The notes under the pieces were generated by a model. The model did not search any database. It was not told where the DNA came from and worked only from the letters and a program-made list of their open reading frames with translations. Below, piece after piece: positions 32,049 through 54,492 of a stretch of DNA of 64,000 bases. The translations under genes and the position numbers were made by a program. The stretch is taken from assembly GCF_031679605.1 (NCBI RefSeq), contig NZ_CP117522.1, positions 4,526,001 through 4,590,000 on the forward strand, in the 5' to 3' direction. Positions within the stretch are counted from its first letter, which is position 1. Each line of letters starts with the position of its first letter. This stretch comes from Streptomyces luomodiensis (lineage in GTDB: Bacteria > Actinomycetota > Actinomycetes > Streptomycetales > Streptomycetaceae).

Positions 32049-32393
32049 TTGGAAACGAATACGACGGAGATTCTGGCCAGAATGGAACGTGACTACACGA
32101 CCTGGCTGGAGCAGGGGGGGCTGAGCCGGATGGTCAGTCTGGAGGGCCGTGATCTGACCGATCCGGCCGTGTTCGCCGAGGTGATCAGCGAACTGGCCCT
32201 GGAGCCGCACCGCGCGGAATACGCCGGGTCCCTGGCGGGCCACTCGCTGATGAGCGACGCCAGCGCCCGCTGGGCGAGTCTGGTGGGCACCTTCATCAAC
32301 GCCGTGCACAGCGACACCTTGGACGCCCTGCGCGCCGAGACCTCGGTGATGGCGGCGAGCCTGGACGGCGGCCACGCGGGTGGCTGCGGCTGA
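32049..32393 (+). CDS. Small unknown protein with Gly-rich, Cys-containing C-terminus at the cluster border
   Basis: Not recognised. From a TTG start at 32049, with GGGGAGGA 5 nt upstream, it is 114 residues; an in-frame ATG at 32028 is the alternative. The body is predicted helical (TEILARMERDYTTWLEQGG, FAEVISELALEPHRAEYAGSL, DTLDALRAETSVMAASL) and ends DGGHAGGCG. An alpha-helical leader followed by a short Gly/Cys tail is reminiscent of RiPP precursors, but no maturation enzyme adjoins it and this is speculative. Alternatively it is a small structural or regulatory protein of the polyketide cluster. Two hairpins follow. Confidence 0.6.
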   Translation: METNTTEILARMERDYTTWLEQGGLSRMVSLEGRDLTDPAVFAEVISELALEPHRAEYAGSLAGHSLMSDASARWASLVGTFINAVHSDTLDALRAETSVMAASLDGGHAGGCG

Positions 32394-32413
32394 GCGGTCG
32401 CACGCAGCGGCAT

Positions 32414-32449
32414 CCGTTCGGCGGCCGTCACGCGGTGGCCGCCGAACGG
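32414..32449 (+). terminator. Hairpin after the small unknown gene
   Basis: A perfect 13-bp stem, CCGTTCGGCGGCC with GGCCGCCGAACGG (10-nt loop), lies 20 bp past the stop. Confidence 0.75.
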
Positions 32450-32493
32450 TCCCAGCTCACCTCATCCCGCGGACCGCGGACCGTCATCCCACA

Positions 32494-32526
32494 CGCCCCG
32501 CCGGGCGATCCCTGCCCGGCGGGGCG
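32494..32526. terminator. Bidirectional hairpin between the small gene and iclR
   Basis: A perfect 13-bp stem, CGCCCCGCCGGGC with GCCCGGCGGGGCG (7-nt loop), lies 26 bp past the convergent iclR stop. Confidence 0.78.
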
Positions 32527-32551
32527 CTTGGCGGTGGTGCGGGGCGGGCCG

Positions 32552-33286
32552 TCAGCCGCCCGAGAGTTCGGCGAGCCGGACGGCCGCGTCGATCGTCTTG
32601 GCCCCGTACTGCCGCCCGGGGTGCCGGGTCACCCGGCTGACCGGCCCGGACAGCGACACGGCGGCGATCACCTGCCCACCGGGGCCACGGACCGGGGCCG
32701 CGACGGTGGCCATGGCGGGCTCCCAGCCGCCGAAGCTCTGGGCCCAGCCGCGGCGGCGGACCCCGGAGAGCACCGACGCGCTGAACCGGGCCCCGCGCAG
32801 GCCCTCGCAGAGCAGCTCGGGCTCGTCCCAGGCGAGCAGCGCCTGCGCGACCGCCCCGGACTTCATGGGGAAGGCGCTGCCCACGGGCACGCTCTCGCCC
32901 CCGGCGGGCGTCTCGGCGGAGGCCACGCAGACCCGCAGCTGCCCCCGTCGCCGGTAGAGCCGGGCGCTGGCGCCGGTGCGGTCGCGCAGCTCGGGGAGCA
33001 CCGTCTCGGCGGCGAGCAGCAGCCGGTCGTGGCGGGCCTCGACGGCCATGTCGCCGAGGCGCGGGCCGAGCGCGAACCGCCCGTCGGGGTCCCGGGCCAC
33101 CAGCCGCAGCCGCTCCAGGGCGAGGGCGAGCCGGTGCACGGTGGGGCGCTTGAGACCGGTGACGGAGACGAGGGTGGCCAAGGTGGCCGGGCCCGCCTCC
33201 AACACCCCCAGCAGCATCGATGCCTTGTCGAGTACGCCGACTCCGCTTTCCGGCCGGAGGGGCGTGGTTACCGTCGCGGTGGCCAT
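32552..33286 (-). CDS. IclR-family transcriptional regulator
   Basis: Regulator of 244 residues from the ATG at 33286. The winged helix reads LDKASMLLGVLEAGPATLATLVSVTGLKRPTVHRLALALERLRLV (about 19-63). The effector domain includes GASARLYRRRGQLRVCVAS and the family C-terminal signature VIAAVSLSGPVSRVT. It starts 13 bp after the type II thioesterase stop and reads in the same direction, so both may be co-transcribed and the gene probably belongs to the cluster. IclR proteins bind small acids; the ligand is unknown. The frame stays open upstream but that overlaps the thioesterase gene. Confidence 0.92.
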   Translation of the reverse strand: MATATVTTPLRPESGVGVLDKASMLLGVLEAGPATLATLVSVTGLKRPTVHRLALALERLRLVARDPDGRFALGPRLGDMAVEARHDRLLLAAETVLPELRDRTGASARLYRRRGQLRVCVASAETPAGGESVPVGSAFPMKSGAVAQALLAWDEPELLCEGLRGARFSASVLSGVRRRGWAQSFGGWEPAMATVAAPVRGPGGQVIAAVSLSGPVSRVTRHPGRQYGAKTIDAAVRLAELSGG

Positions 33287-33299
33287 GGCAGTCAGTTCC

Positions 33300-34058
33300 T
33301 CAGCCGAGGTGTGCGGCCAGCGTGCGGACCAGGACGTCCTGCTGCTGGACCAGGTAGAAGTGGTCGCCGGGCAGCACCGTGAGGTCGAAGCCGGCCGGGG
33401 CCACGGCGGCCCAGGCCCGCATGTCGGCCACGGTGATCCCGGGGTCGCGGTCGCCCACATGGGCGCGGACGGGGCAGCTCACCGGAGTGGCGGCGCGGGG
33501 GCCGTAGGTGCCCACGGCCTTGAAGTCGGCGCGGATCGCGGGCAGGACGAGTTCGCGCAGGTCCCCATCGTCCAGCAGCGCGGTGTCGGTGCCGCCCAGC
33601 CCCCGGACCTCGTCCAGCAGGGCCTGGTCACCGCGGAGATAGGTGTCCTTGGGGGTGAGCGCGTGGGGTGCCTTGCGGCTCGACACGAAGAGCGCGTCGG
33701 GCCGGATGCCGTGCCGGGTCTCCAGCCGCAGCGCCACCTCGTAGCCGACCGAGGCCCCCATGCTGTGGCCGAAAAGGGTGAGGGGCGTGTCGGCGAACGG
33801 CAGCAGGGCCGCGGTGATCTCGTCGGCCAGGGCCTCGACGCTGTCCAGGGCCGGTTCCTCCAGCCGCTCCTGGCGGCCGGGGTAGCGGGTGGCCAGCACC
33901 TCCACCCCGTCGGCGGTCCCCGGTCCGGCCAGGGCGGTCCCCCAGCCGTGGAAGAAGCTCGCGGAACCCCCCGCGTGGGGCAGGCAGACCAGCCGCCTGT
34001 GTGGTGTCCCCCCGGTTCCGTACCTGCGGAACCATCTGCTGTCGATGCCGACGGTCAT
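33300..34058 (-). CDS. Type II thioesterase (first of two)
   Basis: Alpha/beta hydrolase of 252 residues that clears misloaded carrier proteins in NRPS/PKS systems. The nucleophile elbow is LFGHSMGASVGYE (about 92-104), the entry motif is LVCLPHAGGSASFFHGW (about 23-39), and the catalytic His is in LPGDHFYLVQQQ. The ATG at 34058 follows GGGGAGG. It is co-directional with iclR. A second type II thioesterase at 53743-54492 brackets the other side of the cluster, which suggests separate editing of the PCP and ACP. Confidence 0.93.
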   Translation of the reverse strand: MTVGIDSRWFRRYGTGGTPHRRLVCLPHAGGSASFFHGWGTALAGPGTADGVEVLATRYPGRQERLEEPALDSVEALADEITAALLPFADTPLTLFGHSMGASVGYEVALRLETRHGIRPDALFVSSRKAPHALTPKDTYLRGDQALLDEVRGLGGTDTALLDDGDLRELVLPAIRADFKAVGTYGPRAATPVSCPVRAHVGDRDPGITVADMRAWAAVAPAGFDLTVLPGDHFYLVQQQDVLVRTLAAHLG

Positions 34059-34220: not shown

Positions 34221-35051
34221 TCATCGTCGCGAGCCGGGTGACCGGGCCAGCAGAAGGCCCAGTTCAGCGGCGCGCACACCGGCCTGAAATCGCGAGGTGG
34301 CGCCCAGCAGGGACATTATCTCGGCCACATATCTTCGATAGGTCCGCACGGAGATGGCGAGTTCCCGTGCGGCGACCTCGTCGGTGACCCCGGCGCGCAG
34401 CCGCTCCAGAATCTGCTGGGCGATTTCCGTACGGGTCCGGTCCCCGAAATCGATACGGTCGGCCACCACCACCGCGTTCCGCCACACGCCGTCGAAGAGC
34501 GCGCGCAGCGGCCGGATCACCCCGACCGAGCCGGTGGCCGAGGCGCGGCGGCCGGCCGCCGAGTCGGCGCAGACCAGGGCCTGTTCGTCGTCGGCGATGA
34601 CGGCGGCGAGCGCCGGAATCCGGGCCACCCGGGTCTCGACCCGGGGCTCGGCGGCGTACGCCGTGACGAACCGCCAGTCCAGGGTGCTCGGGGTGCACAG
34701 CAGCCGCACCGCGAGGCGGTCGCCGCCGTCGGCCGACAACCGCTCGGTCAGGGCCTGGTACACGGCCCGGGAGTAGCCGTGCTCGGCCGCGAGCACCACA
34801 TCAACGCGCGTCACCGCGTCCGTCACCAGCCGTGCCGCCGCTTCCACGGCGATATGCGGAACGTCGATGACACAGACCCGCGCGTCCCGGTGCAGCCGGT
34901 CCCGTCGGCGCACCATGGTGGACGCCAGAAGGGCGCTCACTTCCAGGAGTTCCTGCTCGAATTCGTCGCCGACGCGGACCGGTGCCAGGCTGACGTCGCA
35001 CTGGCCGGTGCCGGACGTCCGTTCGGACATGACGGATGACACACCACTCAC
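34221..35051 (-). CDS. LuxR-type HTH regulator with PLD/TrmB-like sensor domain (paralogue 1)
   Basis: Regulator of 276 residues. The N-terminal helix is followed by an alpha/beta region with a TrmB-like layout (HIAVEAAARLVTDAVTRVDVVLAAEHGYSRAVYQAL). The C-terminal HTH reads ILERLRAGVTDEVAARELAISVRTYRRYVAEIMSLLGATSRFQAGVRAAELG (about 215-266). The same HTH occurs in the next gene with about 70 percent identity, so the two arose by duplication. I chose the GTG at 35051; ATG at 35030 is also possible. Tandem 11-bp palindromes 46-77 bp upstream may be its own or its paralogue's operator. Confidence 0.87.
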   Translation of the reverse strand: MSGVSSVMSERTSGTGQCDVSLAPVRVGDEFEQELLEVSALLASTMVRRRDRLHRDARVCVIDVPHIAVEAAARLVTDAVTRVDVVLAAEHGYSRAVYQALTERLSADGGDRLAVRLLCTPSTLDWRFVTAYAAEPRVETRVARIPALAAVIADDEQALVCADSAAGRRASATGSVGVIRPLRALFDGVWRNAVVVADRIDFGDRTRTEIAQQILERLRAGVTDEVAARELAISVRTYRRYVAEIMSLLGATSRFQAGVRAAELGLLLARSPGSRR

Positions 35052-35148: not shown

Positions 35149-35940
35149 TCAGTCGCCCGCCGGCAGTAAGCCCAGCTCGACCGCGCGCACCCCGGCTTGG
35201 AACCGGGAACTGGCCCCCAGGCCGCGCATGATTTCGGCGACATGGCGCCGGTAGGTGCGCAGTGACACCTCGACCTCCCGGGCCGCCACGTCGTCGGTGT
35301 ACCCCTGACAGAGCCTCTCGAGGATGCGCCGGACCGACTCGCTCCGCAACCACTTGTCGATCCACTCGTGCTCGGCCAGCGGTACGGCGCTCCCCCACGC
35401 GCCCGCGAACAGCAGGTCCAGCGTCCGGACCAGGGCCGGGTCCTCGATGACGGAGACGACCTCCTCGCCACGGCTCTCCACCCGGGAGCGGACCATGGCG
35501 ATCCTGCCGTCCACGATCAGGGTGTCCGCGAGCGCCTCCGCCACCCGCACCTGCACCTGCGCCTCACCGCGCTCGACGGCGGCGCGCACGGCGGACTCGC
35601 GTAAGGACTCGGGCGTGCACAGGAGACGGGCCGGTATGCGCTTACGGCCGCCCACGGCAAGCCGCTCCATGGCCGCGCCGACCACCTTCGCGCGCTCTCC
35701 CCCGTCCGGCAGGGCCACGCTGACGCTGTGTTTCGCCTGACCGATCAGGACGTCCACGGCGTTGGCGACGGCGGCCTCGTCGCGGTCCAGTGTGATGACG
35801 GAGTTCCGGGCGGTGCGGCGGTGCAGATTCACCGTGGACACGATCAGCTCGCGGGCCTTGAGCAGTGCCGCTTCCACGCTGTCGGCCGATCTGACGTCGG
35901 CCGGTCTCTCGGAATCGGAAGCCTTCGATGGACCTGTCAT
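35149..35940 (-). CDS. LuxR-type HTH regulator with PLD/TrmB-like sensor domain (paralogue 2)
   Basis: Regulator of 263 residues from the ATG at 35940, which follows GGGGGGTAGGC. The domain plan equals that of paralogue 1: an N-terminal helix (SVEAALLKARELIVSTVNLHRRTA), a TrmB/PLD-like middle (AVANAVDVLIGQAKHSVSVALPDG) and the HTH ILERLCQGYTDDVAAREVEVSLRTYRRHVAEIMRGLGASSRFQAGVRAVELG. Such pairs often serve as pathway-specific regulators in streptomycete clusters. The region upstream to 36020 is unusually A+T-rich and is its likely promoter. Confidence 0.88.
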   Translation of the reverse strand: MTGPSKASDSERPADVRSADSVEAALLKARELIVSTVNLHRRTARNSVITLDRDEAAVANAVDVLIGQAKHSVSVALPDGGERAKVVGAAMERLAVGGRKRIPARLLCTPESLRESAVRAAVERGEAQVQVRVAEALADTLIVDGRIAMVRSRVESRGEEVVSVIEDPALVRTLDLLFAGAWGSAVPLAEHEWIDKWLRSESVRRILERLCQGYTDDVAAREVEVSLRTYRRHVAEIMRGLGASSRFQAGVRAVELGLLPAGD

Positions 35941-36485: not shown

Positions 36486-38198
36486 TTATCCGCGGCCACT
36501 CAGCGTCCACCAGTGCGTCGCCTCGACCGCGCCGGCGGCCTCGGTCAGCAGGCCGGGGCGCACCGGCCGGTCCACGCCCAGCACGACGACCGCGTCGCCG
36601 CCCGGCGCGGTGCGGGCCACCCGCATCGCGGTGATGTGCACCCCGCCCCGGCCGAGCGCCGCACCGAGCCCGCCGAGCACGCCCGCCGCGTCCCGGCAGC
36701 GGAGGAAGAGCGTCTCCCCGGCGAGCGGGAAGTCCAGCGGCCGGCCGCAGATCTCCACCAGCCTGACGGTGCCCTCGGGCGCCGACAGGGCACCGGTCAC
36801 CGAGACGCCGTCGCCGCCGGGGAGGGTCGCGCGGACCGTCACCGAGCGGTCGCCCCCGGCCTCGGGGGCGGCGGTGGTGGCGGTGGCCGTCATGCCGCGC
36901 TCCTCGGCCAGCGCGGGCGCGTTCACGTACGAGACGCGGGTGAGGCCCGCACCGGTCAGCGCGCCCTTCAGGGCCGCGAGTTCCAGCGCGGCCGGTTCCA
37001 GCGCCGCGGGCTCCCGCCTCGTGGGCTCCGGCGTCGTGGGCTCCGGTGCGGCCGCCTCGGGTTCGGTGGGTCCGCCCGTCGCCACGATCTCCAGCCGGGG
37101 CGGCGGCCCTCCGGTGGCGGCGGTGACCAGGGCGGCCAGCCGCTCCGTCAGCGCCAGCCAGGGCGCCGGCGCGCGAGGGACCGTCCCGGCCCGTACGTTG
37201 ACCGCCTCCGGCACCACCTCGCCGCCGAGCACACGCCGTACGGACCGTGCCGCCGACACCCCGGCCCGCTCCTCGGCCTCCGGGGTGTGCGCCGCCGGCT
37301 CCGGGGTGATCACCACGGTGTCCAGTTCGGCCAGCGGGGACTCGGCGCGGGCGACGATCCCCGCCGCCGCGACCCGGCCCTCCTTCAGCGCCGCGTACAG
37401 CTCCAGCTGGTCCACGGCGCCGCCGCCGGTGACGTCGACCAGGCGCGCCCCCGGTCCGATCCGGTGCAGCGCATCGAACCCCAGCAGCCCGCGGTGCTCG
37501 GGCGTTTCGGGCAGGTGCACGGAGACCAGATCGGCACGGGCCAGGAGTTCGTCCAGCGTGACCAGCCGGACGCCCTCCGCCGCGAGGTGACCGGCGAGGT
37601 GACCGGCGGAGTGGCCGGTGCCCGCCGACGGGTCGTAGGCGATCACCTCCATGGCGAACGCGCGCATCCGCCGGGCCACCTCCCACCCGACCGGTCCCAG
37701 GCCGACCAGCCCCAGCACCTTGTCCGCCAGCTCCATCCCCGGCGGCCGGGAGCGCGGCCGGCGCCCGCCCGTGGGCGACGCGTCGGCCCGTGGGATGCCG
37801 CGTGCCACGGCCAGCAGCAGCCCGACGGCGAGCTCGGCGGCGCTGACGGCGTGCGCGGTGGGCGCGTTGACCACCATGACCCCGGCGGCGGTGGCGGCGG
37901 GCACGTCCACCGCGCCCACCCCCGCCCCCGCCGTGGCGATCACCTTCAGCCGGGGCGCGGCGGCCAGGGCCTCGGCGTCGATCCGCGTGGTGTCGCGGAC
38001 GAGCACCGCGTCGGCCTCGGCCAGCTCCCTCAGCAGGGCGTCCCGCCCGGCGCCGGAGCGCTCGCGGATCTCCACCTCCGGTCCGAGGGCGGCCACGGCG
38101 GTGGGCGACAGCTCCTCGGCGATCAGTACGACCGGCCGGCGGTCCGCGGTGGCCTCGCCCCCGGCCTCCGTTCCGCCGCCGCGCACGGGGCCGGTCAA
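36486..38198 (-). CDS. D-3-phosphoglycerate dehydrogenase-like protein (SerA homologue) of the diaminopropionate pathway
   Basis: Protein of 570 residues from a TTG at 38198, whose 4-nt overlap with the sbnA stop (TTGA) copies the ATGA/GTGA overlaps along this operon. The Rossmann loop is LGLVGLGPVGWEVARRM, followed by a SerA-type intervening domain and a C-terminal ACT-like domain (GETLFLRCRDAAGVLGGLGAALGRGGVHITAMRVART). It should start serine/O-phosphoserine supply for SbnA. Key residues look altered: the usual NxARG segment reads DVTGGGAVDQ without the substrate Arg, and the usual TPH reads TPEPAAH. An Ala/Glu/Pro repeat of about 45 residues (EPTTPEPTRREPAALEPAAL) interrupts it. It may be impaired or altered in substrate. 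Confidence 0.85.
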   Translation of the reverse strand: MTGPVRGGGTEAGGEATADRRPVVLIAEELSPTAVAALGPEVEIRERSGAGRDALLRELAEADAVLVRDTTRIDAEALAAAPRLKVIATAGAGVGAVDVPAATAAGVMVVNAPTAHAVSAAELAVGLLLAVARGIPRADASPTGGRRPRSRPPGMELADKVLGLVGLGPVGWEVARRMRAFAMEVIAYDPSAGTGHSAGHLAGHLAAEGVRLVTLDELLARADLVSVHLPETPEHRGLLGFDALHRIGPGARLVDVTGGGAVDQLELYAALKEGRVAAAGIVARAESPLAELDTVVITPEPAAHTPEAEERAGVSAARSVRRVLGGEVVPEAVNVRAGTVPRAPAPWLALTERLAALVTAATGGPPPRLEIVATGGPTEPEAAAPEPTTPEPTRREPAALEPAALELAALKGALTGAGLTRVSYVNAPALAEERGMTATATTAAPEAGGDRSVTVRATLPGGDGVSVTGALSAPEGTVRLVEICGRPLDFPLAGETLFLRCRDAAGVLGGLGAALGRGGVHITAMRVARTAPGGDAVVVLGVDRPVRPGLLTEAAGAVEATHWWTLSGRG

Positions 38199-39202
38199 CC
38201 GGCACCGACCAGTTGGGAGGAGGGGTCGGTGCGGGGGGCCGGGAGCTGCGCACCGGCGGGCTCCTCGTAGTGCTCGGCCACCCACTCCGGGTCGTACACC
38301 GAGTCGAGATAGCGGTCACCCTGGTCGGGTGCGATGGCCACCGAGACGAGCGGACCGCCGCCCGGCCGCTCGGCCAGCCAGCGCCGGGCGCCGCTGACCA
38401 CGGTGCCCGTCGAACCGCCGAAGAGGAAACCGCGCCGCGCCATGGCCCGGCAGGTCTCGATGGTCTCCGGCTCCTCCACCATCACCACCTCGTCGACCAG
38501 TCCGGGGTCCAGCAGCGCCGGCCGGACCCCGGCCCCGAGGCCCGGGATCAGCCGGCGCGCCGGCGGTCCGCCGAAGGTGACCGACCCGACCGAGTCCACG
38601 GCCACCACGGTCACCGAGGGCCGGTGCTCCCGGAACCAGCGGGCGCAGCCCATCAGGGTGCCGGTCGTGCCGGCGCCGATGAACACCACGTCCAGTCCGG
38701 GGAACTGCTCGGCGATGGCCGGGGCGGTGGTGCGGTAGTGGGCCAGCCAGTTGTGGCGGTTGTCGTACTGGTTGAGCCAGACATACCGCGGGTCGTAGGC
38801 GCACAGCCGCTGTACGTAGTCCAGGCGGGCGCCGAGCAGGCCCCGGGTCTTGTCCGGGCGGCTGATGGTGAGCACCTGGGCGCCGAGGGCCTGCATCTGG
38901 CGGCGGCTGGCCGGGTTGCAGCGCGAGTCCGTGACGCACAGGAAGCCGTAACCGCGGCTGGCGGCGATCATGCTCAGCGCGATTCCGAGGTTGCCGGAGG
39001 AGGACTCCACCAGGACCGACCCCGGGGCCAGCAGCCCGTCGCGTTCGGCGGCGAGCACCATCTCACGAGCCGCCTTCAGCTTCACGGATCCCGCGAAGTT
39101 GAAGCTCTCGCATTTGAGATACAGAGGAACGTCGACCACCGCGCCGAGATCCACATAGAGGTCTTCCATGTTGATCTCGTGCGGGGCTGAGATTACGGGC
39201 AC
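38195..39202 (-). CDS. sbnA: SbnA: N-(2-amino-2-carboxyethyl)-L-glutamate synthase
   Basis: Fold-type II PLP enzyme of 335 residues that joins O-phospho-L-serine and L-glutamate to ACEGA, the precursor of L-2,3-diaminopropionate. The PLP Lys lies in ESFNFAGSVKLKAA (about 33-46), VESSSGNLGIALSM binds phosphate, and VFIGAGTTGTLMG is typical of the cysteine-synthase family. The GTG at 39202 gives the family N-terminus VPVISAPHEIN. It lies 41 bp downstream of sbnB and overlaps serA. The sbnA-sbnB pair is the recognised diaminopropionate cassette of staphyloferrin B and viomycin-type pathways. Confidence 0.94.
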   Translation of the reverse strand: MPVISAPHEINMEDLYVDLGAVVDVPLYLKCESFNFAGSVKLKAAREMVLAAERDGLLAPGSVLVESSSGNLGIALSMIAASRGYGFLCVTDSRCNPASRRQMQALGAQVLTISRPDKTRGLLGARLDYVQRLCAYDPRYVWLNQYDNRHNWLAHYRTTAPAIAEQFPGLDVVFIGAGTTGTLMGCARWFREHRPSVTVVAVDSVGSVTFGGPPARRLIPGLGAGVRPALLDPGLVDEVVMVEEPETIETCRAMARRGFLFGGSTGTVVSGARRWLAERPGGGPLVSVAIAPDQGDRYLDSVYDPEWVAEHYEEPAGAQLPAPRTDPSSQLVGAG

Positions 39203-41389: not shown

Positions 41390-41402
41390 GGTCGGGGTGT
41401 CC

Positions 41403-46427: not shown

Positions 46428-47554
46428 GGTGCCACCAGCCTCAGGACCGCGCAGGCCAGGGAGCCGTCGCGGTCGGCCGAGGTGATGACGGCGAGACGGC
46501 CCGCCGCCTCGTCGGACAGTGCGGCCGTCGCCAGCAGGAAGGCGATCTGGAAGGTGGCCGAGGCCGCCGAGACATCGCCGAGCCGGCCCACTCCGGGCAC
46601 CCGCTCCACCGCCTCCGCGCCGAACAGCGCGGTCAGCGCCTGTCGTTCGCACGCGCCCAGGCGGCCGGGCGCGTCGCTGGGGCTGGCCGCCCACACGTCG
46701 TGCGGCCGGGCGCCCGCGGCCTCCAGGGCGGAGGCGACACACGCCTCCAGCACCGGCCGCACCCGGTCTCCGGTGGCGACGCGCGTGCGGACCGCGAGGA
46801 TCTCGGCGAGCGCCGGGCGGGCGGGGCTGAGCGTGTCCGGCCGCTGGACCAGCAGCGCCGCCGCGCCCTCGCCCAGCGCCACCTCCGCGTCGTACCCGGC
46901 GTCGCCGGCTTCGGCGGCCCGGCTGTGGCGCTCGAGCCAGTAGCGGGCCCGGGAGAACTCCTCGGCGGCGGTGCACAGCACCGACCCCGCCCGTCCCGAG
47001 GTCAGCAGCCGGGTGGAGTAGTGGAGCGCCGCGAGTCCGGCGGTGCGGCCCTGGGCGAGCGTGGTGTTGGGGCCCCGGATGCCGTACCAGATGGAGCACT
47101 GTCCGGCCGCGCAGTTCATCACCGCGTTGGGCATCACGGCCGGGTCGACGTCGAACGGCGCCTCACCCAGGAGTGAGGTGCGGGTGAAGTCCATCATGGA
47201 CTCGGCGCTGCCGGTCGTGGTGCCGAGCACCAGCGCGGCCCGCTCCCCGGTCTCCCGTTCCCGGTCGGCCTCCGGCTGGTCCAGCAGGCCGCCGACCACG
47301 CTGACCGCGAGACCGGTCACCCGGTCCATCGAGCGGGTGCCCTTCTTGCCCAGCACCTGCCGGGTCTCGAAGCCGGGCACCAGATGGGCCGGGCCCTCGG
47401 GCACGCCCCAGCGGGCGGTGTCCACCGGGGCGGCGGTGGACCGGCCCGAGCGGAGCCCGTCCACGAGCGCCTGGGCGCCCAGGCCGTACGGGGAGACCGC
47501 CGACCACGCCGAGATCACCGGCCGGGTGGCGGCGGGGGCCGCCGCGGCGGTCAT
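46424..47554 (-). CDS. Ketosynthase-like protein without active-site Cys (chain-length-factor type), KS-D
   Basis: Thiolase-fold protein of 376 residues. The segment corresponding to the nucleophile elbow reads NTTLAQGRTAGLAALHYS, with Arg where the catalytic Cys belongs. The first His motif (HGTGT in active enzymes) reads SPSDAPG, and the second (GH) reads RLGDVSAASATFQ. All three catalytic residues are lost, as in chain-length factors. It should pair with one of the active ketosynthases encoded upstream. The ATG at 47554 overlaps the previous stop by 4 nt. Confidence 0.88.
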   Translation of the reverse strand: MTAAAAPAATRPVISAWSAVSPYGLGAQALVDGLRSGRSTAAPVDTARWGVPEGPAHLVPGFETRQVLGKKGTRSMDRVTGLAVSVVGGLLDQPEADRERETGERAALVLGTTTGSAESMMDFTRTSLLGEAPFDVDPAVMPNAVMNCAAGQCSIWYGIRGPNTTLAQGRTAGLAALHYSTRLLTSGRAGSVLCTAAEEFSRARYWLERHSRAAEAGDAGYDAEVALGEGAAALLVQRPDTLSPARPALAEILAVRTRVATGDRVRPVLEACVASALEAAGARPHDVWAASPSDAPGRLGACERQALTALFGAEAVERVPGVGRLGDVSAASATFQIAFLLATAALSDEAAGRLAVITSADRDGSLACAVLRLVAP

Positions 47555-48564
47555 GACCGGACCCCCTTCGGGCTGCTGAGGGCCTCGATGGTCGCCTCGT
47601 CGAGGGTGGCCATGGACCACTGGTTGGGGGCGTGCTCGGTGAGGTAGCCGTGGGTGATGGTGCCGGTGGCGGTGTGCACCAGCGCGCCGTCGCGGATCAC
47701 GTAGCAGTCCATCCGCGCCGTGTAGAGCAGGCTCTTGAAGATGTCCTCGATGGTGTAGACGGTGTAGAGCTCCTCCTCCATCACCGTCTCGTCGAGCAGC
47801 CGGATACGGGACTGGGTGACGACGGGGATCCAGCCGCGGCCGTCCAGCACCTCCTTGATGGCCAGGCCCCGGTCGGCGAGGAAGAGGTCCTCGGCCTCCT
47901 CCATCACGCGCAGGAAGCCGGACATCTGCACCCGCTCGTTGAAGTGGCAGTAGAAGTACGGCATCCGCCAGCGCCAGCCGAACGCGTTGTCCTCGCCGAT
48001 CAGCTGGGCCAGGACCGGGTCCGCGGTGCCGGTGACGCCGCGGCCCTCGGCGAAGCCGCCGTACGGGCGCGGGGTCACGGCCAGTTCGCGGCGTTCGCCG
48101 GTGCCCAGCCGCTCGACGGCGAACCGGGCGAGCCCGGCCGGGTACTCCTCGGACGCCGTGATGTGACCGTCGATCCGCAGCACCACGCCCACCGTGGACC
48201 CGGCGCATTTGACCCGCTGGCCGTCGCGCTGGACGAAAAGCGCCACCTGGAAGGTGAGTTCACCGGCGTCGGCCTTGGTGGCGGGGGTCACCTCCGCCTC
48301 GACCTCGTCGTCCACCGCGAGCAGCGCGCCGAGCCGCGAGCGCAGGTCGACGACCTCGAAGCCGAGGCCGTAGCGCTGGTAGAGCTCGCCGACCGGGAGC
48401 CCGGCCACCCGGAAGTGGTTCAGCACGGCCGCCTCGGCGACGTAGTTGATGTGCTTGAAGCCGATCGCGTAGCTGATGTTGTTGCCTTCGAACACCGGGC
48501 GCAGCCGCACGGTGGTCGCAGCGTCCAGCAGGGCCGACACGGCCGGGTCTGGCACCGGTCCCAT
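47551..48564 (-). CDS. Double-hotdog thioesterase-like protein
   Basis: Protein of 337 residues from the ATG at 48564, which follows AAGGAG. Two hotdog-like halves can be traced: ISYAIGFKHINYVAEAAVLNHFRVAGLP (about 29-56) and FYCHFNERVQMSGFLRVMEEAEDLFLADRG (about 207-236). The latter resembles 4-hydroxybenzoyl-CoA/acyl-ACP thioesterases. It could release the chain from ACP, act as a second dehydratase, or be a non-catalytic partner. Exact family not named with certainty. It starts the second coupled block of the operon after a 40-bp gap. Confidence 0.75.
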   Translation of the reverse strand: MGPVPDPAVSALLDAATTVRLRPVFEGNNISYAIGFKHINYVAEAAVLNHFRVAGLPVGELYQRYGLGFEVVDLRSRLGALLAVDDEVEAEVTPATKADAGELTFQVALFVQRDGQRVKCAGSTVGVVLRIDGHITASEEYPAGLARFAVERLGTGERRELAVTPRPYGGFAEGRGVTGTADPVLAQLIGEDNAFGWRWRMPYFYCHFNERVQMSGFLRVMEEAEDLFLADRGLAIKEVLDGRGWIPVVTQSRIRLLDETVMEEELYTVYTIEDIFKSLLYTARMDCYVIRDGALVHTATGTITHGYLTEHAPNQWSMATLDEATIEALSSPKGVRS

Positions 48565-48604: not shown

Positions 48605-49357
48605 TCAGGTGCCGGCCACCGGGCTGAGGTCGCAGCGGTCGAGGAAGTCGTGCAGGACGCCGGTGAACCATGCGGGCCGCTCCAGCATCGGGAAGTGGCC
48701 GCCGCCGGGCAGGACGCGCACCCGGCCGCGGGGCAGTTCGGCGGCGAGCGTGCGGGCCTGGGCGACATCGGCGGTGGCGTCCTGGTCTCCGCCGATCACC
48801 AGGCACGGGGTGTCGATCGCGGCCACGCGGATCAGCGGGGTGCCGAGGTAGGCGTCCAGGAAGCGCAGCCAGCCGTACGGGCCGACCCATTCGCACAGCC
48901 GCCGGGCGATGTCGGCCCGCAGCTCCGGCTGGATCGGGCGGTCGCCGGACTGCAGCCGGATGCCCTCCGACATGGTCTGCGGAAAGCTGTCCAGCAGGGG
49001 CGCCATCATGCCCCACTCGAAGTCGTCCGCGGCCCGCCGGTAGAAGGGGTTCACCAGCACCACACCGGGCACGTCGAGGGGGTTCCCGGCCAGCGCCCGG
49101 CGGGCGAGCAGCTCCAGCAGCAGCACCGAGCTGAAGGAGTGCGCGACCACCAGGTCCGCGCCGCCGCCCGGAGTGGCCGCCAGGACCTCCTCGACCAGCC
49201 GGGCCGAGTCCCGCTCATGGCGCCATTCCGCGATCCCCATGCCGGTCCACGGCAGGTCGGGAGCGTGGATCCGCACATCGGGACGCCAATGGGCGGCCAG
49301 CCCGGTCCAGATGCCGCTGCTGTTGCCGAGCCCGTGCAGCAGGACGATCCGCTTCAC
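48605..49357 (-). CDS. Alpha/beta hydrolase of the polyketide operon
   Basis: Protein of 250 residues. Oxyanion loop IVLLHGLGNSSGIW (about 4-17), nucleophile Ser in VVAHSFSSVLLLEL (about 89-102, where the usual GxSxG is H-S-F-S-S), acid in VIGGDQDATAD and His in LPGGGHFPMLERP. It may hydrolyse the thioester or transfer the chain to an amine. Since no condensation domain is present, an acyltransferase role is worth considering. The GTG at 49357 overlaps the KS-C stop by 4 nt. Confidence 0.87.
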   Translation of the reverse strand: MKRIVLLHGLGNSSGIWTGLAAHWRPDVRIHAPDLPWTGMGIAEWRHERDSARLVEEVLAATPGGGADLVVAHSFSSVLLLELLARRALAGNPLDVPGVVLVNPFYRRAADDFEWGMMAPLLDSFPQTMSEGIRLQSGDRPIQPELRADIARRLCEWVGPYGWLRFLDAYLGTPLIRVAAIDTPCLVIGGDQDATADVAQARTLAAELPRGRVRVLPGGGHFPMLERPAWFTGVLHDFLDRCDLSPVAGT

Positions 49358-50328
49358 GCCGCACGCTCCACCGGGATCCAGACCGTGCCGCTCGCTTCCC
49401 CGCCGGCGCCGCCGAGCAGCGCGTAGACCGGTTCAGTACGGCCGGAGTCGGCCCAGGCGACGGCGGTCGCGCAGTGCAGCAGCCCCAGCGCGCCCGAGCA
49501 GTCGCCCCAGCCGGAGAGGTCGGCCGTCTCGCCCCCGGGCGGGACGGCGGACGGGTCCGGGCCGAGCCACAGCCCGGCGGCCGCCTCCCGGGCCGGGCCC
49601 GGGACGGCGTCGGCCAGGGCGGCGACGCAGTCGGGCAGCTTCTCGGTACGGAACGAGGGGCCGAGCAGCACCCGGGGCGCGGCGGCGCCCGCCGCGTCCG
49701 TCCGGCTGACCACCACGGCCGCCCCGCCGTCGACCATCCGCGCGCCGGTGAGCCGCCGGGTGACGTCGTTGTCCGGCTCCACGCCGGCCACCACCATGTG
49801 GTCGGCCCGGCCCGAACGCAGCGTCAGGCGGGCCCAGCGCAGCGCGTCGAGGCCCGAGGTGACGCCGTTGCACACGGTGAGGTTCGGTCCGCGCAGCCCG
49901 AAGCGGATCGCGATCTCGGAGGCGATGATGTTGCTGGACGCGTTGGGCGTGTCCATCGGGCTCAGGGCGCCGGTGTTCTCCTCGGCGATGGTCGCCACCG
50001 CCCGGCAGACCGTATCGGCGTTGCCCAGGTTGGAGCTGACCACCACCCCCACCCGGTCACCGGGGACGAGCAGCCCCCGCGGGCCGAGGAGTCCGGCGTC
50101 GGTCAGCGCGGCCGCGGCCATGCACAGCCCCAGCTGAGTGGCGCGGTCCTTGAACCGCAGCCCCTTCTTGCCGATGAGGGCGGCCGGATCCACCGGGTCC
50201 GCACCGGCCACCGGGCCGTGCCGCAGCCCGCCGGGCTCGTTCAGTCCGGGCAGGACGACCCCGACGCCCGTGACCGCCGCGGCCGCTGATGTCGTCGCTG
50301 TCGTCGTCACTGTCGTGGTCGCTGTCAT
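49354..50328 (-). CDS. Short degenerate ketosynthase-like protein (chain-length-factor type), KS-C
   Basis: Thiolase-fold protein of 324 residues, about 90 shorter than normal ketosynthases. The nucleophile segment reads LTVCNGVTSGLDALRWA; aligned with TACSAG of KS-A, the Cys position is Val. The HGTGT motif is missing and the second His motif reads GWGDCSGALGLLHC (GH to GD). It therefore looks non-catalytic and CLF-like. Its N-terminus is a Thr/Ala repeat (MTATTTVTTTATTSAAAA). It overlaps both flanking genes by 4 nt. Confidence 0.85.
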   Translation of the reverse strand: MTATTTVTTTATTSAAAAVTGVGVVLPGLNEPGGLRHGPVAGADPVDPAALIGKKGLRFKDRATQLGLCMAAAALTDAGLLGPRGLLVPGDRVGVVVSSNLGNADTVCRAVATIAEENTGALSPMDTPNASSNIIASEIAIRFGLRGPNLTVCNGVTSGLDALRWARLTLRSGRADHMVVAGVEPDNDVTRRLTGARMVDGGAAVVVSRTDAAGAAAPRVLLGPSFRTEKLPDCVAALADAVPGPAREAAAGLWLGPDPSAVPPGGETADLSGWGDCSGALGLLHCATAVAWADSGRTEPVYALLGGAGGEASGTVWIPVERAA

Positions 50329-51452
50329 GCCGCACCCGCCACGATCGCGACGGCGTTGACGCCGCCGAAGCCGAAGCCGTTGACCTGGGCCACCCGGACC
50401 GGTGCGGTGAGCGGACGGTCACTGACCAGCCGCAGCCCCTCGCCCTCGGGCAGCGGCTCGGTGAGGTTGGCGATCGGCGGTATCCGGCCGCTCTCGACCG
50501 ACCGGAGCGCCACGATCAGGCTCATCAGCCCGGCGGAGCCGGAGGTGTGCCCGGTCAGTGCCTTGATCCCGGTGAAGGCGGGGGAGGCGCCCTTGAACAC
50601 CTCGGCCACCACCTCCGCCTCGGTGCGGTCGTTGAGCGGCGTGCCGGTGGCGTGCAGCACCACCAGGTCGATGTCCTCGGGGCGGCTGCCCGCCGCCCGC
50701 TGGGCCATCTCGATGGAGGCCCGCACCCCGTCCGCGTCGGGCGCGGTCTGGTGGTAGGCGTCGCAGTTGACCGCGACCGAGCGCAGCCAGCCGCGGACCG
50801 GACGCCCGGCCGCCGGCTCGCGGCGCAGCACGATCGCGGCGGCGCCCTCGCCGAGGATGGTCCCCTGCCGGTCCCGGTCGAAGGGGCGCACCTGCGGCGG
50901 CGGGTCGAACTGCACCCGGTCGGCGAGGCCGAACATGGACTCGGTCACCGTGTCGCAGCCGGCCACGATCACCGTGTCGGTCTCACCCTGTTCCAGCAGG
51001 TCCCAGCCGAGCGCCAGCGCGTAGAGCGAGGCGGAGCAGGCGCCGGCGAAGGTGTGGGTGTCGTACGCGCCGAAGCGGCGGCGCAGCGCGGGCCCGAAGT
51101 CGAGGCCGTCCGCGGTGAAGGGGACGCCGTCGCGCCACCACAGCTCCAGCGAGCGCAGCTCCCGCAGCCCGGTGCCGACCAGCACCGGGACCCCGCCGAG
51201 GTCGTCGGGGAGCCCGGCGTCCGCGGCGGCCTGGCGCACCGCCTCCATCAGGAAGCGGGTGGCGCGGCCGGGTTCGTCACCGTCGCCGGTGCGGTCGTCG
51301 ATCTCGAAGAGCTGCCGTGCGGTGAACCGCCGCTCGTCGAAGCCGCGCAGCGGCCCGATGCCGCTGCGGCCCTCGCACAGGGACGCGAAGATCTCGTCGG
51401 GGTCGTCGCCGATGCTGGCGACCGCGCCGATACCGGTGATCGGGAAGCTCAT
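50325..51452 (-). CDS. Beta-ketoacyl-ACP synthase with complete catalytic triad, KS-B
   Basis: FabF-like enzyme of 375 residues. Catalytic Cys in FAGACSASLYALALG (about 164-178), first His in LHATGTPLNDRTE (about 272-284) and second His in ALTGHTSGSAGLMS (about 305-318), so the C-H-H set is intact. It opens MSFPITGIGAVASIG. The relatively short length and the sequence distance from KS-A suggest a separate role, such as initiation or a different chain window. The start overlaps the KS-A stop by 4 nt. Confidence 0.92.
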   Translation of the reverse strand: MSFPITGIGAVASIGDDPDEIFASLCEGRSGIGPLRGFDERRFTARQLFEIDDRTGDGDEPGRATRFLMEAVRQAAADAGLPDDLGGVPVLVGTGLRELRSLELWWRDGVPFTADGLDFGPALRRRFGAYDTHTFAGACSASLYALALGWDLLEQGETDTVIVAGCDTVTESMFGLADRVQFDPPPQVRPFDRDRQGTILGEGAAAIVLRREPAAGRPVRGWLRSVAVNCDAYHQTAPDADGVRASIEMAQRAAGSRPEDIDLVVLHATGTPLNDRTEAEVVAEVFKGASPAFTGIKALTGHTSGSAGLMSLIVALRSVESGRIPPIANLTEPLPEGEGLRLVSDRPLTAPVRVAQVNGFGFGGVNAVAIVAGAA

Positions 51453-52771
51453 GAGGCGCTCCGCGATCCCGCCGGGGCCCCGCTGCCGGCCTCGGCTCCC
51501 TCGGCTCCCTTGGCCTGCTCGGCCTCCTCGTCGCCCTCGTACTTGCCGAGGATGACGATGGCGTTGTTGCCGCCGAAGGCCAGGCCGTTGTTCTGGACGA
51601 CCCTCAGATCGGCGTCGACGGCCTGGTTGGGCACGCAGTCGATCTCGCACTCGGGGTCGGTCACCGTGTGGTTGATGGTCGGTGGGATGAAGCCGTGGGT
51701 GATGGCGAGTCCGCAGGCGATAGCGCCCAGGGCGCTGGCGGCGCCCATGGTGTGTCCCAGCATGGACTTCAGGGAGATGGTGCGCGGTGTCGCGGCCGCG
51801 AAGACCTGGCGGATCGCCCGGGACTCGGTGATGTCGTTGGCCTTGGTGCCGGTGCCGTGGGCCGAGATCAGGTCGACCTCTTCCGGTTTGACCCCGGCGT
51901 TGTTCAGGGCGAGCTCCATGCACGCGGCGACGCTGTCCCCGTTGGGCGCCACCTGGTGGTAGGCGTCGCAGTTGAGGCCGTAGCCGAGCACCTCGGCGTA
52001 GATACGGGCGCCGCGCGCCAGCGCCGACTCCAGGCTCTCCAGCACCAGCACCCCGGCGCCCTCGCCGGTGAGGATGCCCTTGCGGTTCACATCGAAGGGC
52101 TGGCAGCACTCGGGCGCGATGGTGCCCAGCCGGTAGAAGCCGGTGAAGGTCTTGCGGCACATCGCGTCCGCGCCGCCGCACAGGGCGTACTCGACCTCTC
52201 CGGAGCTCACCGCGTCGAAGCCGTAGCCGATCGAGTAGTTGCCCGCGGAACAGGCGGTCGCGATCGTCAGCGCCTCGACGTCGGTGAGCTGGAGCTCCTG
52301 TGCGATGGCGGTGGACAGCCGGGCGGCCGGCACCCGGCGCACCGTCTGCCGGTCCATCCGCTCGGGGCCCTCGGCGACTTCGGTCGCCACCAGCTGGTCG
52401 AGTTCGAAGGACTCACCGTCCGTGGTGCCCACGGAGACCAGTCCCCGCCGGTCGCCCAGCCACGCGGGGTCGAGTCCCGCGTCCTGGACGGCCATCCGGG
52501 CCGCCGCCACGGCGAACCGGCTGGCCCGTCCGAGCTCCTGAACGGGGGTACTGGTGATCCACTGCTCGGGGGCGAACCCCCTGACCTCACACCCGTTGAC
52601 GTGTGCGAAGCCCTCGACGTCGAACACCGAGATGGGGCTGACTCCGCTGCGCCCCTCCCGCAGGCTCCGGGTGAAATCGGCGGCGCCGATCCCGATACTG
52701 GAAATGACGCCGAAACCGGTGAGCACCACACGGCGTTTCACCGCGTCGGCACCGGGACGTGATTCGGACAT
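51449..52771 (-). CDS. Beta-ketoacyl-ACP synthase with complete catalytic triad, KS-A
   Basis: FabF-like condensing enzyme of 440 residues, full length. Catalytic Cys in TIATACSAGNYSIGYG (about 170-185), first His in SAHGTGTKANDITES and second His in LKSMLGHTMGAASALG. The last ~25 residues form an acidic Ala/Glu/Gly tail (EEAEQAKGAEGAEAGSGAPA). It is the likely main elongating ketosynthase. The gene lies 36 bp downstream of the ACP gene and starts the coupled block. Confidence 0.94.
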   Translation of the reverse strand: MSESRPGADAVKRRVVLTGFGVISSIGIGAADFTRSLREGRSGVSPISVFDVEGFAHVNGCEVRGFAPEQWITSTPVQELGRASRFAVAAARMAVQDAGLDPAWLGDRRGLVSVGTTDGESFELDQLVATEVAEGPERMDRQTVRRVPAARLSTAIAQELQLTDVEALTIATACSAGNYSIGYGFDAVSSGEVEYALCGGADAMCRKTFTGFYRLGTIAPECCQPFDVNRKGILTGEGAGVLVLESLESALARGARIYAEVLGYGLNCDAYHQVAPNGDSVAACMELALNNAGVKPEEVDLISAHGTGTKANDITESRAIRQVFAAATPRTISLKSMLGHTMGAASALGAIACGLAITHGFIPPTINHTVTDPECEIDCVPNQAVDADLRVVQNNGLAFGGNNAIVILGKYEGDEEAEQAKGAEGAEAGSGAPAGSRSAS

Positions 52772-52807
52772 GGTGACTTCCCTTTTGACTCGGCGGCCAC
52801 GGGCCGG

Positions 52808-53059
52808 TTACCGGCTGGGGGCCTCCGCCACCACCTGGTAGACCTTTTCCAGATTCACCATTTCGCTCAGCTCGGACTGGTCAATGGTGATCTTGAACTC
52901 CTTCTCCAGGGAGGCGAGGATCTCGATGGCCCGGAGTGAGTCGGCGCCGTGGTCATCGATGAAGAGGCTGGTGTCGGTGACCTCGTCCTCTTCCAGCTCG
53001 AGAATGTCGCAGACGATCTCCTTGATGGTCGCCTGGAGCTCCGCAGTGATCGTGGCCAT
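52808..53059 (-). CDS. Acyl carrier protein
   Basis: Free-standing ACP of 83 residues, the normal size. The phosphopantetheine Ser lies in DDHGADSLRAIEILASLEKEF (about 36-56), preceded by acidic helix residues (ILELEEDEVTDTSLFID). It carries the growing chain for the ketosynthase, reductase and dehydratase encoded downstream. The ATG at 53059 precedes MATITAELQATIKEIVCD. It is distinct from the PCP in the NRPS protein, giving the cluster two carriers. Confidence 0.96.
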   Translation of the reverse strand: MATITAELQATIKEIVCDILELEEDEVTDTSLFIDDHGADSLRAIEILASLEKEFKITIDQSELSEMVNLEKVYQVVAEAPSR

Positions 53060-53163
53060 GCCGGTTTTCTCCTCATCCACGGTTTCGTTGACGCGTTGCT
53101 GTGCGGTGCGGTGTGGTGCTCTGTGATGCGGTGCCGTGTGGTGCGGTGCGGCCGGTCCGTGCC

Positions 53164-53382
53164 TCAGGACCCGTCCGCCGCCATGGCCTCGGCGAGGCTG
53201 CGCGGGCGCATGTCGGTCCAGTTCTCGTTGATGTAGTCGAGGCATTGCTGCCGCGGGGCAAGGCCGTGAACGGACTTCCAGCCGGCCGGTATCTCGGCGA
53301 AGGCGGGCCACAGGGAATGCTGTCCCTCGTCGTTCACCAGGACGTAGTAGTCGGCCCCGTCGTCCTCGAATGGATTAGCCAT
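53164..53382 (-). CDS. mbtH: MbtH-like adenylation-domain chaperone
   Basis: Protein of 72 residues that binds NRPS adenylation domains and activates them. The family signature is complete: [33 protein letters not shown] (about 3-35) with the three conserved Trp, and [18 protein letters not shown]. It is first in the long minus-strand operon, 104 bp before the ACP gene, and should serve the adenylation protein at 41403-43805, the only NRPS in the window. The ATG at 53382 follows GGAAGGG. Confidence 0.97.
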
Positions 53383-53742
53383 CAGCTTCCCTTCCAGGGG
53401 TGCTCGCCCATTTCGGACCGACCATAGGCAGCCGTGATTCTGACCCACAAGCTTCTTTGGCGACGAGCGACGGGAGGGGCGTGAGAGATTGCAATGAGAA
53501 GAATCTGATAAAGCGTTGCCAAGGTCCGGCCCGCGCGTTCCGCCCTCAGCCGGGAACGCGAGAAAAGGGATGTTCGGCGCAGCACGACCCCCGCGGCGGA
53601 CGTCGCGGCGTCACCCAGCCCGACCGCGCTACCACGCACTGTGACTTCGGGCCATCAAGAAATTCTCGGCTCCAGGCACCGGCCGGGAACCGGGGCGGTA
53701 CCGTGACCGGGCCAACCGCTGTCCACCGCCGAGGAGTCGCCG
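53383..53742. other. Divergent promoter region between mbtH operon and second thioesterase gene
   Basis: About 360 bp without a supported gene. It contains the likely promoter of the main biosynthetic operon (minus strand) and of the thioesterase (plus strand). The stretch about 53,480-53,520 is relatively A+T-rich. No repeated operator like that of LuxR paralogue 1 was seen here. Confidence 0.5.
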
Positions 53743-54492
53743 GTGTCCCGGGCACTGTTCCATCCGCTTCCCCGCCCAGCCGCCGGCCGGACCCTGCTGT
53801 GCCTGAGCTTCTGCGGCGGCGGTACGGCCTCCTTCCGGCCCTGGGCCGAGGCCCTGCCGCCGGACGTGGAACTGGCCTTGTACTGCTACCCCGGCCGCGA
53901 GGGCCGATACACCGTGCCGTTCGCGGCCGACTGGAACGCGCTGGTCGAGGACGCGCTGACCGCCGTCCGGTCCGTCGCCGCGACGCGTCCGTACGTCCTG
54001 CTGGGGCACAGCATGGGCGCCTGGGTCGGCTTCGAGCTCACGTGCCGGCTCGAGGCGGGCGCCGGCACCCCGCCACAGGCTCTGGTGGTCTCCGCCTCCG
54101 ACTCCCCCACCCGCTGGGCCGAGAAGAGCCGCCGGAGCCCGCGCGCGAGCGACACCGACGAGCAGCTCCTGACCTGGATGAGCACGGTGGGCCAGCTCGC
54201 CCCCGAGGTGCTGGAGGAGCCCGATCTGTGCGCGATGGCGCTGGAGGTCTTCCGCGCCGATCTGCGGCTCTCCGACGGCTACCGCTACCGCGAGGGCCTC
54301 GCGGTGCGCACACCGCTCCAGGTGCTGTACGGCGTGGACGACGACCTCGACGCCCCGGCCGACCGCTGGCGCCCCCTGGCCGCCGGGGAGTTCCGGGCCG
54401 ACGAGCTGCCGGGCGGGCACTTCTACACCCCCAAGGTATGGGCCCGCCTACCCGAGTCGGTAGCCGCGCTGGCGCCGTCGGCGGCGCGGTAG
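53743..54492 (+). CDS. Type II thioesterase (second of two)
   Basis: Alpha/beta hydrolase of 249 residues. Nucleophile elbow LLGHSMGAWVGFELTCRLE (about 86-104), entry loop LLCLSFCGGGTASFRPWAEAL (about 18-38) with Cys-Gly-Gly-Gly where the other copy has His-Ala-Gly-Gly, and catalytic His in LPGGHFYTPKVW. The GTG at 53743 follows GAGGAG. It is divergent from the mbtH operon and marks the right edge of the cluster. The two copies are clearly different in sequence, so they may serve ACP and PCP separately. Confidence 0.92.
   Translation: MSRALFHPLPRPAAGRTLLCLSFCGGGTASFRPWAEALPPDVELALYCYPGREGRYTVPFAADWNALVEDALTAVRSVAATRPYVLLGHSMGAWVGFELTCRLEAGAGTPPQALVVSASDSPTRWAEKSRRSPRASDTDEQLLTWMSTVGQLAPEVLEEPDLCAMALEVFRADLRLSDGYRYREGLAVRTPLQVLYGVDDDLDAPADRWRPLAAGEFRADELPGGHFYTPKVWARLPESVAALAPSAAR

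Follow-up and report, generated by a model that had tools for sequence, protein, structure and literature searches.

A probable cinnamoyl-type nonribosomal peptide cluster of Streptomyces luomodiensis with a diaminopropionate cassette proposed to serve modules that lack adenylation domains

Cinnamoyl-containing nonribosomal peptides (CCNPs), among them skyllamycin, WS9326A, kitacinnamycin and epoxinnamide, come from clusters in which ketosynthase/chain length factor (KS/CLF) pairs, a ketoreductase (KR), dehydratases (DHs), an acyl carrier protein (ACP) and an isomerase are encoded beside a multimodular nonribosomal peptide synthetase (NRPS) (PMC6510318, PMC9321520). PMC6510318 selects such clusters by KS, KR, DH, ACP and isomerase genes beside an NRPS and places isomerases in cal and sky, not in other type II polyketide synthases (PKSs); PMC9381841 describes two or three KS/CLF pairs with a glutathione-dependent cis-trans isomerase, and PMC9321520 two KS, two CLF, a KR, two DHs and an isomerase. 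CCNPs containing 2,3-diaminopropionate (Dap) are already known, namely coprisamides A-D (PMC4778507 for A/B; PMC13192320 for C), for which there is a cluster in Micromonospora sp. UTJ3. Epoxinnamide shows UV absorption at 280 nm (PMC12298158). Here we describe a 64,000-nt stretch of the 10.04-Mb, single-contig genome of Streptomyces luomodiensis (C1:4526001-4590000, hereafter the window), whose positions 32049-54492 had been read from the sequence alone as an unassigned hybrid of a highly reducing type II PKS and a single adenylation-peptidyl carrier protein (A-PCP) unit, with a small polyenoyl-Dap conjugate as product (hereafter the original prediction). In our judgement these genes are probably part of a cluster that makes a CCNP with Dap residues. 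One A-PCP would feed the Dap, probably oxidised while tethered, in trans to several NRPS modules. Of this cluster the window most likely contains the genes for the acyl chain and those for amino-acid supply, and the NRPS genes follow just beyond its right end. We favour this because two KS/CLF pairs, a KR, dehydratases and an isomerase beside a large NRPS are the published CCNP signature; the differences from described CCNPs are three modules without an adenylation (A) domain, a Dap cassette and fused dehydratases. Trans supply is not mentioned in the CCNP descriptions drawn on in PMC6510318 and PMC9321520.

Genes were called over 142 kb with a simple GC-frame caller, which gives approximate starts, and domains were assigned with Pfam and NCBIfam models at their own cut-offs. 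All the parts listed by the original prediction were found in place, most of them in the coupled operon it had described, which is tightly packed from the ACP gene to the SerA homologue with several 4-base overlaps. The PKS set comprises two KS, two CLF-like proteins, a KR, a fused dehydratase pair, an ACP and g56, which resembles DsbA and 2-hydroxychromene-2-carboxylate (HCCA) isomerases (Table 1). Alignment of nine orthologues of each KS-like protein showed that the nucleophile Cys is kept in 9/9 for g63 and g64 and is missing in 9/9 for g59 and g62, in keeping with the two intact and two degenerate ketosynthases claimed earlier. Because the Cys is missing from every orthologue, we read g59 and g62 as CLFs and dropped the idea that they are broken KS; the PDB matches of g62 are the N-terminal halves of KS. 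The closest solved KS/CLF is the 6kxd pair, matched by g64 and g59, which bears out a highly reducing type II PKS; its chains, labelled Ketosynthase in the PDB, are presumably the ishigamide proteins Iga11 and Iga12. Iga11 groups with Sky17 and Cal30 (PMC6510318). For the reductive steps, g57 scored above the cut-off of the FabG subfamily model NF009466 and slightly below that of TIGR01830. No enoyl reductase was seen among the scanned genes, as had been noted, and PF13561, a family bearing an enoyl-reductase name, is a match of this same FabG-like protein. The counterpart of the fused g58 is two separate genes in G287 and G006, two of the related genomes introduced below.

Several genes of the interval had been overlooked, namely g56, g60, g61 and three regulators. 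The starts of g56 and g62 were taken from the longer open reading frame (ORF), and the Pfam match of g56 was obtained on a shorter start, as were its weak PDB matches to HCCA isomerase (best E=7.9e-05). Judged from these matches, g56 would fit a glutathione-dependent isomerase (PMC9381841) and is a candidate homologue of Sky27/YsfG. The protein g60 had no PDB sequence match, and its AlphaFold model (mean pLDDT 88.7) has 2own_B as best Foldseek match (E=5.6e-13), which points to a thioesterase-like fold. Ishigamide-type clusters have no isomerase and are not known to include a large NRPS, whereas here a second KS/CLF pair, the isomerase-like g56 and the large NRPS g78-g80 accompany the Iga11-Iga12-like pair. 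An ishigamide- or aryl-polyene-like small product was dropped once the NRPS and the isomerase had been found, and two KS/CLF pairs with an isomerase favour a cinnamoyl-type acyl group over the ishigamide-type polyene of the original prediction. A PKS like that of cispentacin or coronafacate (PMC10698177) was also dropped, since all Amc equivalog models (AmcE, AmcF, AmcG) scored under their cut-offs (g58, 61.8 vs 140; g62, 34.7 vs 80; g64, 199.6 vs 325).

A genome search for Condensation domains placed the NRPS 11 kb to the right of the interval, where three same-strand genes (C1:4591803-4628886) encode ten modules and a thioesterase (TE). In the likely reading order, and with C, T and E for condensation, thiolation and epimerisation domains, the modules are C-T and C-A-T-E on g80; C-A-T-E, C-A-T, C-A-T-E and C-T-E on g79; and C-T-E, C-A-T-E, C-A-T and C-A-T-TE on g78. 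Pfam, for which g78 and g79 were each halved owing to their length, found 10 PCP, 7 AMP-binding, 16 Condensation-type and one Thioesterase stretches in g78-g80, and we read the 16 as 10 C plus 6 E domains; local profiles cut one g78 A domain in two, which is single in Pfam. The single A-PCP of the original prediction hence stands for the interval but not for the cluster, which has seven further A domains 11-48 kb to the right. The modules without an A domain are numbers 1, 6 and 7 of the ten: their C-to-T gap is 18-27 aa, compared with 510-605 aa in the others. None of 38 modules in other NRPS stretches of the same genome lacks an A domain, a control that covers all Condensation hits outside the cluster but one weak one at 9472348-9472833. 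Apart from g78-g80, g55 is the sole A-domain protein called over the 142 kb. The pocket codes of the in-line A domains, extracted by alignment, are DLTKVGEVG (module 2), DALLIGAVA (3), DLTKLGVVN (4), DVAQGGAVA (5), DFWNVGMVH (8), DALLVGAVM (9) and DAYFWGVTF (10), with variation at modules 8 and 9 in some relatives. We take those of modules 2 and 4 to suggest Asp/Asn, that of module 8 Thr and that of module 10 an aliphatic residue; none of the cluster's in-line A domains has a code with two terminal acidic residues. Against the ten modules here, kitacinnamycin is described with nine, and coprisamides A/B are cyclic heptapeptides with beta-methylaspartate.

To place the locus among its relatives we sampled 392 genomes of the genus: a g60 relative occurs at E <= 1e-20 in 61 of them, and with at least 73% identity in nine, its own genome included. 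Six of these nine (G000, which is the present genome, G360, G357, G069, G287 and G006) keep the NRPS together with the PKS, Dap genes and exporter. The other three (G018, G093 and G306) have the PKS core and NRPS-type genes, and no gene best-matching g51-g55 in the first 40 kb read. The NRPS architecture is identical in G357, G069, G287 and G006, and the G360 stretch stops inside g80. Gene order is retained in all five relatives with the full set, which takes the gene set far beyond what chance would give. The PKS operon and the NRPS are separated by 11 kb of other genes, and these, which include an ATP-grasp island for a ribosomally synthesised and post-translationally modified peptide (RiPP), might suggest two separate clusters side by side, with a small acyl-Dap from the PKS and Dap operon and its own peptide from the NRPS; moreover, 68 of the 80 loci of the A-PCP family surveyed below have no PKS core. 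We nevertheless regard two clusters as improbable. The order PKS, cassette, exporter, NRPS is kept in the five relatives while NRPS identity falls to 61-69% (G006) and 63-69% (G287), and the exporter genes g71/g72 are at the same position in each. This order holds in G357 and G069 even without the RiPP genes, for which no match was seen at the equivalent place. Two clusters would also leave the NRPS with three modules lacking an A domain in its own cluster. The original prediction had named NRPS modules encoded elsewhere as grounds for revising its product, and ten such modules stand next to the PKS; with their placement kept in orthologous clusters, a small polyenoyl-Dap conjugate is unsupported.

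The SbnA/SbnB route to L-Dap was borne out, as both proteins exceed their equivalog cut-offs (SbnA, TIGR03945, 379.8 vs 349.95; SbnB, TIGR03944, 415.5 vs 326.9). The Staphylococcus aureus pair yields L-Dap and 2-oxoglutarate (PMC4668381), and the latter is the co-substrate of the adjoining oxygenase, g54. The HxE...H motif of g54 (H123, E125, H317) is invariant in 12 aligned sequences. The SerA homologue is a partial success of the original prediction: a 2-hydroxyacid dehydrogenase, g51, is present, but it scores 362.7 against a cut-off of 454 with the phosphoglycerate dehydrogenase (PGDH) model TIGR01327. One Arg and one His, which we take to be catalytic residues of SerA, are lost in G000, G360 and G357 and kept in G069, G287 and G006; by this criterion g51 is probably no longer catalytic here.

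When genome contigs of one collection were scanned with six g55 orthologues, a g55 relative turned up at 466 loci; the 80 best were inspected, with presence of a gene scored at 45% identity or more. These 80 include close relatives and most genomes of the ten-cluster set described below, so that the counts are of non-independent events, and they are lowered in part by contig ends and more distant copies; two other NRPS proteins of the same group (L093_0 and L162_0) were excluded. The A-PCP is present in 80, the oxygenase in 78, SbnB in 75 and SbnA in 67, with all four together in 65. The hosts are Streptomyces, Pseudonocardia, Saccharopolyspora, Geodermatophilus and metagenome-assembled genomes labelled Acidobacteria, Rokuibacteriota and Gammaproteobacteria; the closest named record is the A-PCP of Streptomyces sp. 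S465 (98% to g55). In eight loci the A-PCP and the oxygenase are one ORF, as in G006, where residues 3-823 correspond to g55 and 894-1176 to g54. The link between A-PCP and dioxygenase is supported by this fusion, which ties the oxygenase to the tethered residue. In Saccharothrix we also observed that the oxygenase gene of the cassette is split into two short frames of 162 and 171 aa (L166; cf. L116), and that an unbroken g54-like gene (57%; L163) is present about 50 kb away in the same region.

The pocket code of g55, DIWQSTADDK, occurs in 76 of the 80 family proteins, the other four having near variants, and no occurrence of the bare code was found in open-licence PMC texts. PMC12283262 gives DVWQMIGDDK as a diaminobutyrate (Dab) code with beta-hydroxy modification and two Dap codes that are 80% identical to Dab codes; the g55 code and its Dab code have D.WQ...DDK in common. 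This resemblance, together with the chemical stability that we would expect of beta-hydroxy-Dab, suggests that g55 might load another diamino acid, for example Dab, which the oxygenase would beta-hydroxylate, the SbnA/SbnB product being used elsewhere. We consider this rather unlikely, because SbnA, SbnB and the oxygenase accompany the A-PCP in the 65 loci noted above; no Dab-forming gene was noticed either, though no search was aimed at one.

Ten NRPS clusters linked to the cassette were examined, seven of them CCNP-type, and all ten have modules without an A domain. Such modules make up 3 of 10 in G000, G357, G069, G287 and G006, 2 of 9 visible in G360 and 2 of 10, at the places of modules 6 and 7, in the CCNP-type locus of Saccharothrix sp. 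NRRL B-16314. In Saccharopolyspora hirsuta, S. subtropica and Allokutzneria the numbers are 4, 4 and 3 of 10, and no PKS core was seen in the stretches read. A fifth candidate genome of the search for NRPS hosts, L093, is outside the set of ten. Systems of A-PCP, oxygenase and TE supply free modified amino acids, and the A-PCP ends in a TE domain in 37 of the 80 loci (L103 among them; Pfam on L103, and BLAST), none of which is among the 12 with a PKS core. On such a precedent, and given further stand-alone A-T frames elsewhere in the genome, the same CCNP cluster could use its A-PCP and oxygenase to make a free modified amino acid while another A domain charges the incomplete modules. This seems to us unlikely, if slightly less so than Dab loading: the A-PCP of the window has A and PCP parts only (Pfam) and no TE domain, the lack of in-line codes ending in two acidic residues leaves free oxidised Dap no obvious entry, and modules without A domains recur in all ten cassette-linked clusters.

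Returning to trans supply of Dap within a CCNP line, the following scheme would account for the gene content. The type II PKS would build a polyene with a cis double bond, whose closure would give a cinnamoyl-type acyl group, as in the published CCNP model. The first C domain would join this group to the decapeptide assembled by g80, g79 and g78, collinearity being assumed, which the C-terminal TE would free. SbnA and SbnB would make L-Dap, g55 would adenylate and hold it, and g54 would oxidise the bound residue, perhaps desaturating it or adding a hydroxyl that is stabilised at a later step. The aminoacyl unit would then move to modules 1, 6 and 7, either by direct charging of their PCPs by the A domain or through a thioesterase-like shuttle (g48, g67 or g61); g48 is the window's best match (29% identity; BLAST) to the TE domain fused to the A-PCP relative L103. 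As to the oxidation, the hydroxylated Dap named in the original prediction is chemically awkward. Because a hydroxyl on the beta-amino carbon gives a hemiaminal, chemistry would rather favour desaturation, or else a hydroxylation with subsequent acylation. Fe/2-oxoglutarate oxygenases act on tethered units and can also desaturate or cyclise, and in the AmbB/AmbE system of L-2-amino-4-methoxy-trans-3-butenoic acid (AMB) the A domain of a partner charges the carrier of another protein (PMC4357302). SyrB1/SyrC of syringomycin is a further trans-loaded NRPS system. Here, unlike in these two, several incomplete modules lie along one line and Dap synthesis is dedicated.

We lean, with less assurance than for the CCNP assignment itself, towards the cassette being a portable supply module for oxidised Dap, which passes its thioester in trans to an adjacent carrier lacking an A domain and which at least three assembly systems have taken up. 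Its hosts would be the CCNP NRPSs, a second NRPS type (Saccharopolyspora/Allokutzneria) and Pls/PosA-like synthetases without an A domain, and in each CCNP line one A domain would serve up to three modules. A PKS core is present in 12 of the 80 loci and a PCP-membrane protein family adjoins the A-PCP in 60; the two are never found together, and eight loci have neither. The one family member scanned, that of L103, scores 811.6 against a cut-off of 423.1 with TIGR02353, the Pls/PosA model, and has a PCP and no A domain. The Streptomyces albulus poly-Dap synthetase combines A, PCP and membrane parts in a single protein (PMC4668381), whereas g55 has only the first two. Loci such as L103, L107 and L112, without a PKS core, encode an A-PCP (often with a TE), the oxygenase, SbnB, SbnA and the Pls/PosA-type protein; what they make may be a polymer of oxidised Dap or something else.

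A number of observations weigh against trans supply of oxidised Dap to a CCNP line. We looked for a carrier signature for trans loading and gave it up, as modules 1, 6 and 7 form no group by their PCP, C or E domains; the PCPs of these modules are no more alike, or like the g55 PCP, than other PCPs. The stand-alone A-T frames elsewhere in the genome could contribute. SyrC/CmaE-type aminoacyltransferases are Cys enzymes, and no dedicated enzyme of this type was seen, the hydrolases and type II thioesterases being read by eye as Ser-type; nor was a ring-aromatising desaturase identified. In the Saccharothrix locus the apparent module 1, the first of its g80-like protein, has an A domain, and some gaps (3, 3 and 2) of the three clusters without a PKS core measure 102-206 aa, which may leave room for remnants. 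The G018 stretch, where no cassette was seen, has one module without an A domain beside its own A-T protein, hence the cassette is not the sole setting for such modules. The ten clusters were picked for having cassette and NRPS together, are thus non-random and include several close relatives. The SerA homologue has lost its residues in the three closest genomes while retaining its place in the operon, and another ammonia source has been proposed for the S. albulus Dap pair (PMC4668381).

Among the open-licence PMC texts listed, no description was found of the same gene set or of a Dap cassette feeding modules without A domains. In place of a small polyenoyl-Dap, the expected product becomes a large decapeptide of the cinnamoyl type, of which a module-by-module reading of the NRPS would give no residue at 3 of 10 positions. 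The cassette points to a conserved, transferable route by which a single loading enzyme could supply a non-standard and probably oxidised diamino acid to several modules; it would offer a handle for predicting blank residues in other clusters and a possible part for NRPS engineering.

Table 1. Genes of the interval, the exporter and the NRPS, in window coordinates
Feature	Position	Strand	Basis or remark
g47, IclR-type regulator	32552..33286	-	PF01614 + PF09339; retained in G360, G357, G069, G287
g48, type II thioesterase, candidate editing/shuttle enzyme	33300..34058	-	PF00975
g49, LuxR-type regulator	34221..35030	-	PF00196 21.2 bits, under cut-off 23.5
g50, LuxR-type regulator, adjoins g49	35149..35877	-	PF00196 21.5 bits, under cut-off 23.5
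g51, SerA-like, probably non-catalytic here	36486..38186	-	TIGR01327 under cut-off; Arg/His lost
g52, SbnA, Dap synthesis	38195..39202	-	TIGR03945 above cut-off; PALP
g53, SbnB, Dap synthesis	39244..40287	-	TIGR03944 above cut-off; OCD/mu-crystallin
g54, TauD-family Fe(II)/2-oxoglutarate oxygenase	40361..41389	-	PF02668; HxE...H motif intact
g55, stand-alone A-PCP, proposed trans Dap loader	41403..43805	-	PF00501 + PF00550; code DIWQSTADDK
g56, DsbA/HCCA-isomerase-like, candidate cis-trans isomerase	43802..44560	-	PF01323; 252-aa ORF
g57, FabG-type ketoreductase	44557..45318	-	PF13561/PF00106; NF009466
g58, fused hotdog dehydratase pair	45315..46427	-	PF07977, two stretches
g59, CLF-like KS homologue, Iga12-like	46424..47554	-	PDB 6kxd_B, E=1.6e-75
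g60, double-hotdog protein, acyl-ACP-thioesterase-like fold	47551..48564	-	PF13279
g61, alpha/beta hydrolase	48605..49357	-	PF12697
g62, second CLF-like KS homologue, truncated	49354..50328	-	PF00109 without PF02801 (shorter start)
g63, second intact KS	50325..51452	-	PF00109 + PF02801; best PDB match 6kxd_A
g64, first intact KS, Iga11-like	51449..52729	-	PDB 6kxd_A, E=2.4e-164
g65, free ACP	52808..53059	-	PF00550
g66, MbtH-like protein	53164..53382	-	PF03621
g67, second type II thioesterase	53743..54492	+	PF00975
g71, g72, two-gene ABC exporter, between PKS operon and NRPS	57893..59727	+	PF00005 + PF01061
g78, NRPS gene	65803-81072		outside window, right
g79, NRPS gene	81090-96566		outside window, right
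g80, NRPS gene	96563-102886		outside window, right

The RiPP island between the PKS operon and the NRPS (59744-61817, minus strand) is of the graspetide type, with a TIGR04188 methyltransferase (393.6 vs 380) and a TIGR04187 ATP-grasp protein (396.9 vs 350). To the right of the NRPS are two P450 genes (g81, g87) and a second TauD oxygenase gene (g82), and g81, g82 and g83 are retained in G357, G069, G287 and G006. Also outside the window, at window coordinates 105343-109362 on the minus strand (L011:3343-7362), a gene for a 1339-aa RHS-repeat/PA14 protein overlaps g82 by 4 bases; it is retained in the same four genomes and has a 43% relative in the Saccharothrix region. The same genome has a second highly reducing type II PKS set (L059; C1:3906001-3926000), with its own g60-like protein (51-52%), KS genes, a KR, DHs and an isomerase-like gene. 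An ABC1/UbiB-like kinase gene, g29, sits 17 kb to the left of the operon in this genome, and relatives of it stand beside other CCNP-type PKS sets (58% in G018 L049; 46% in G093 L052), which may be chance.

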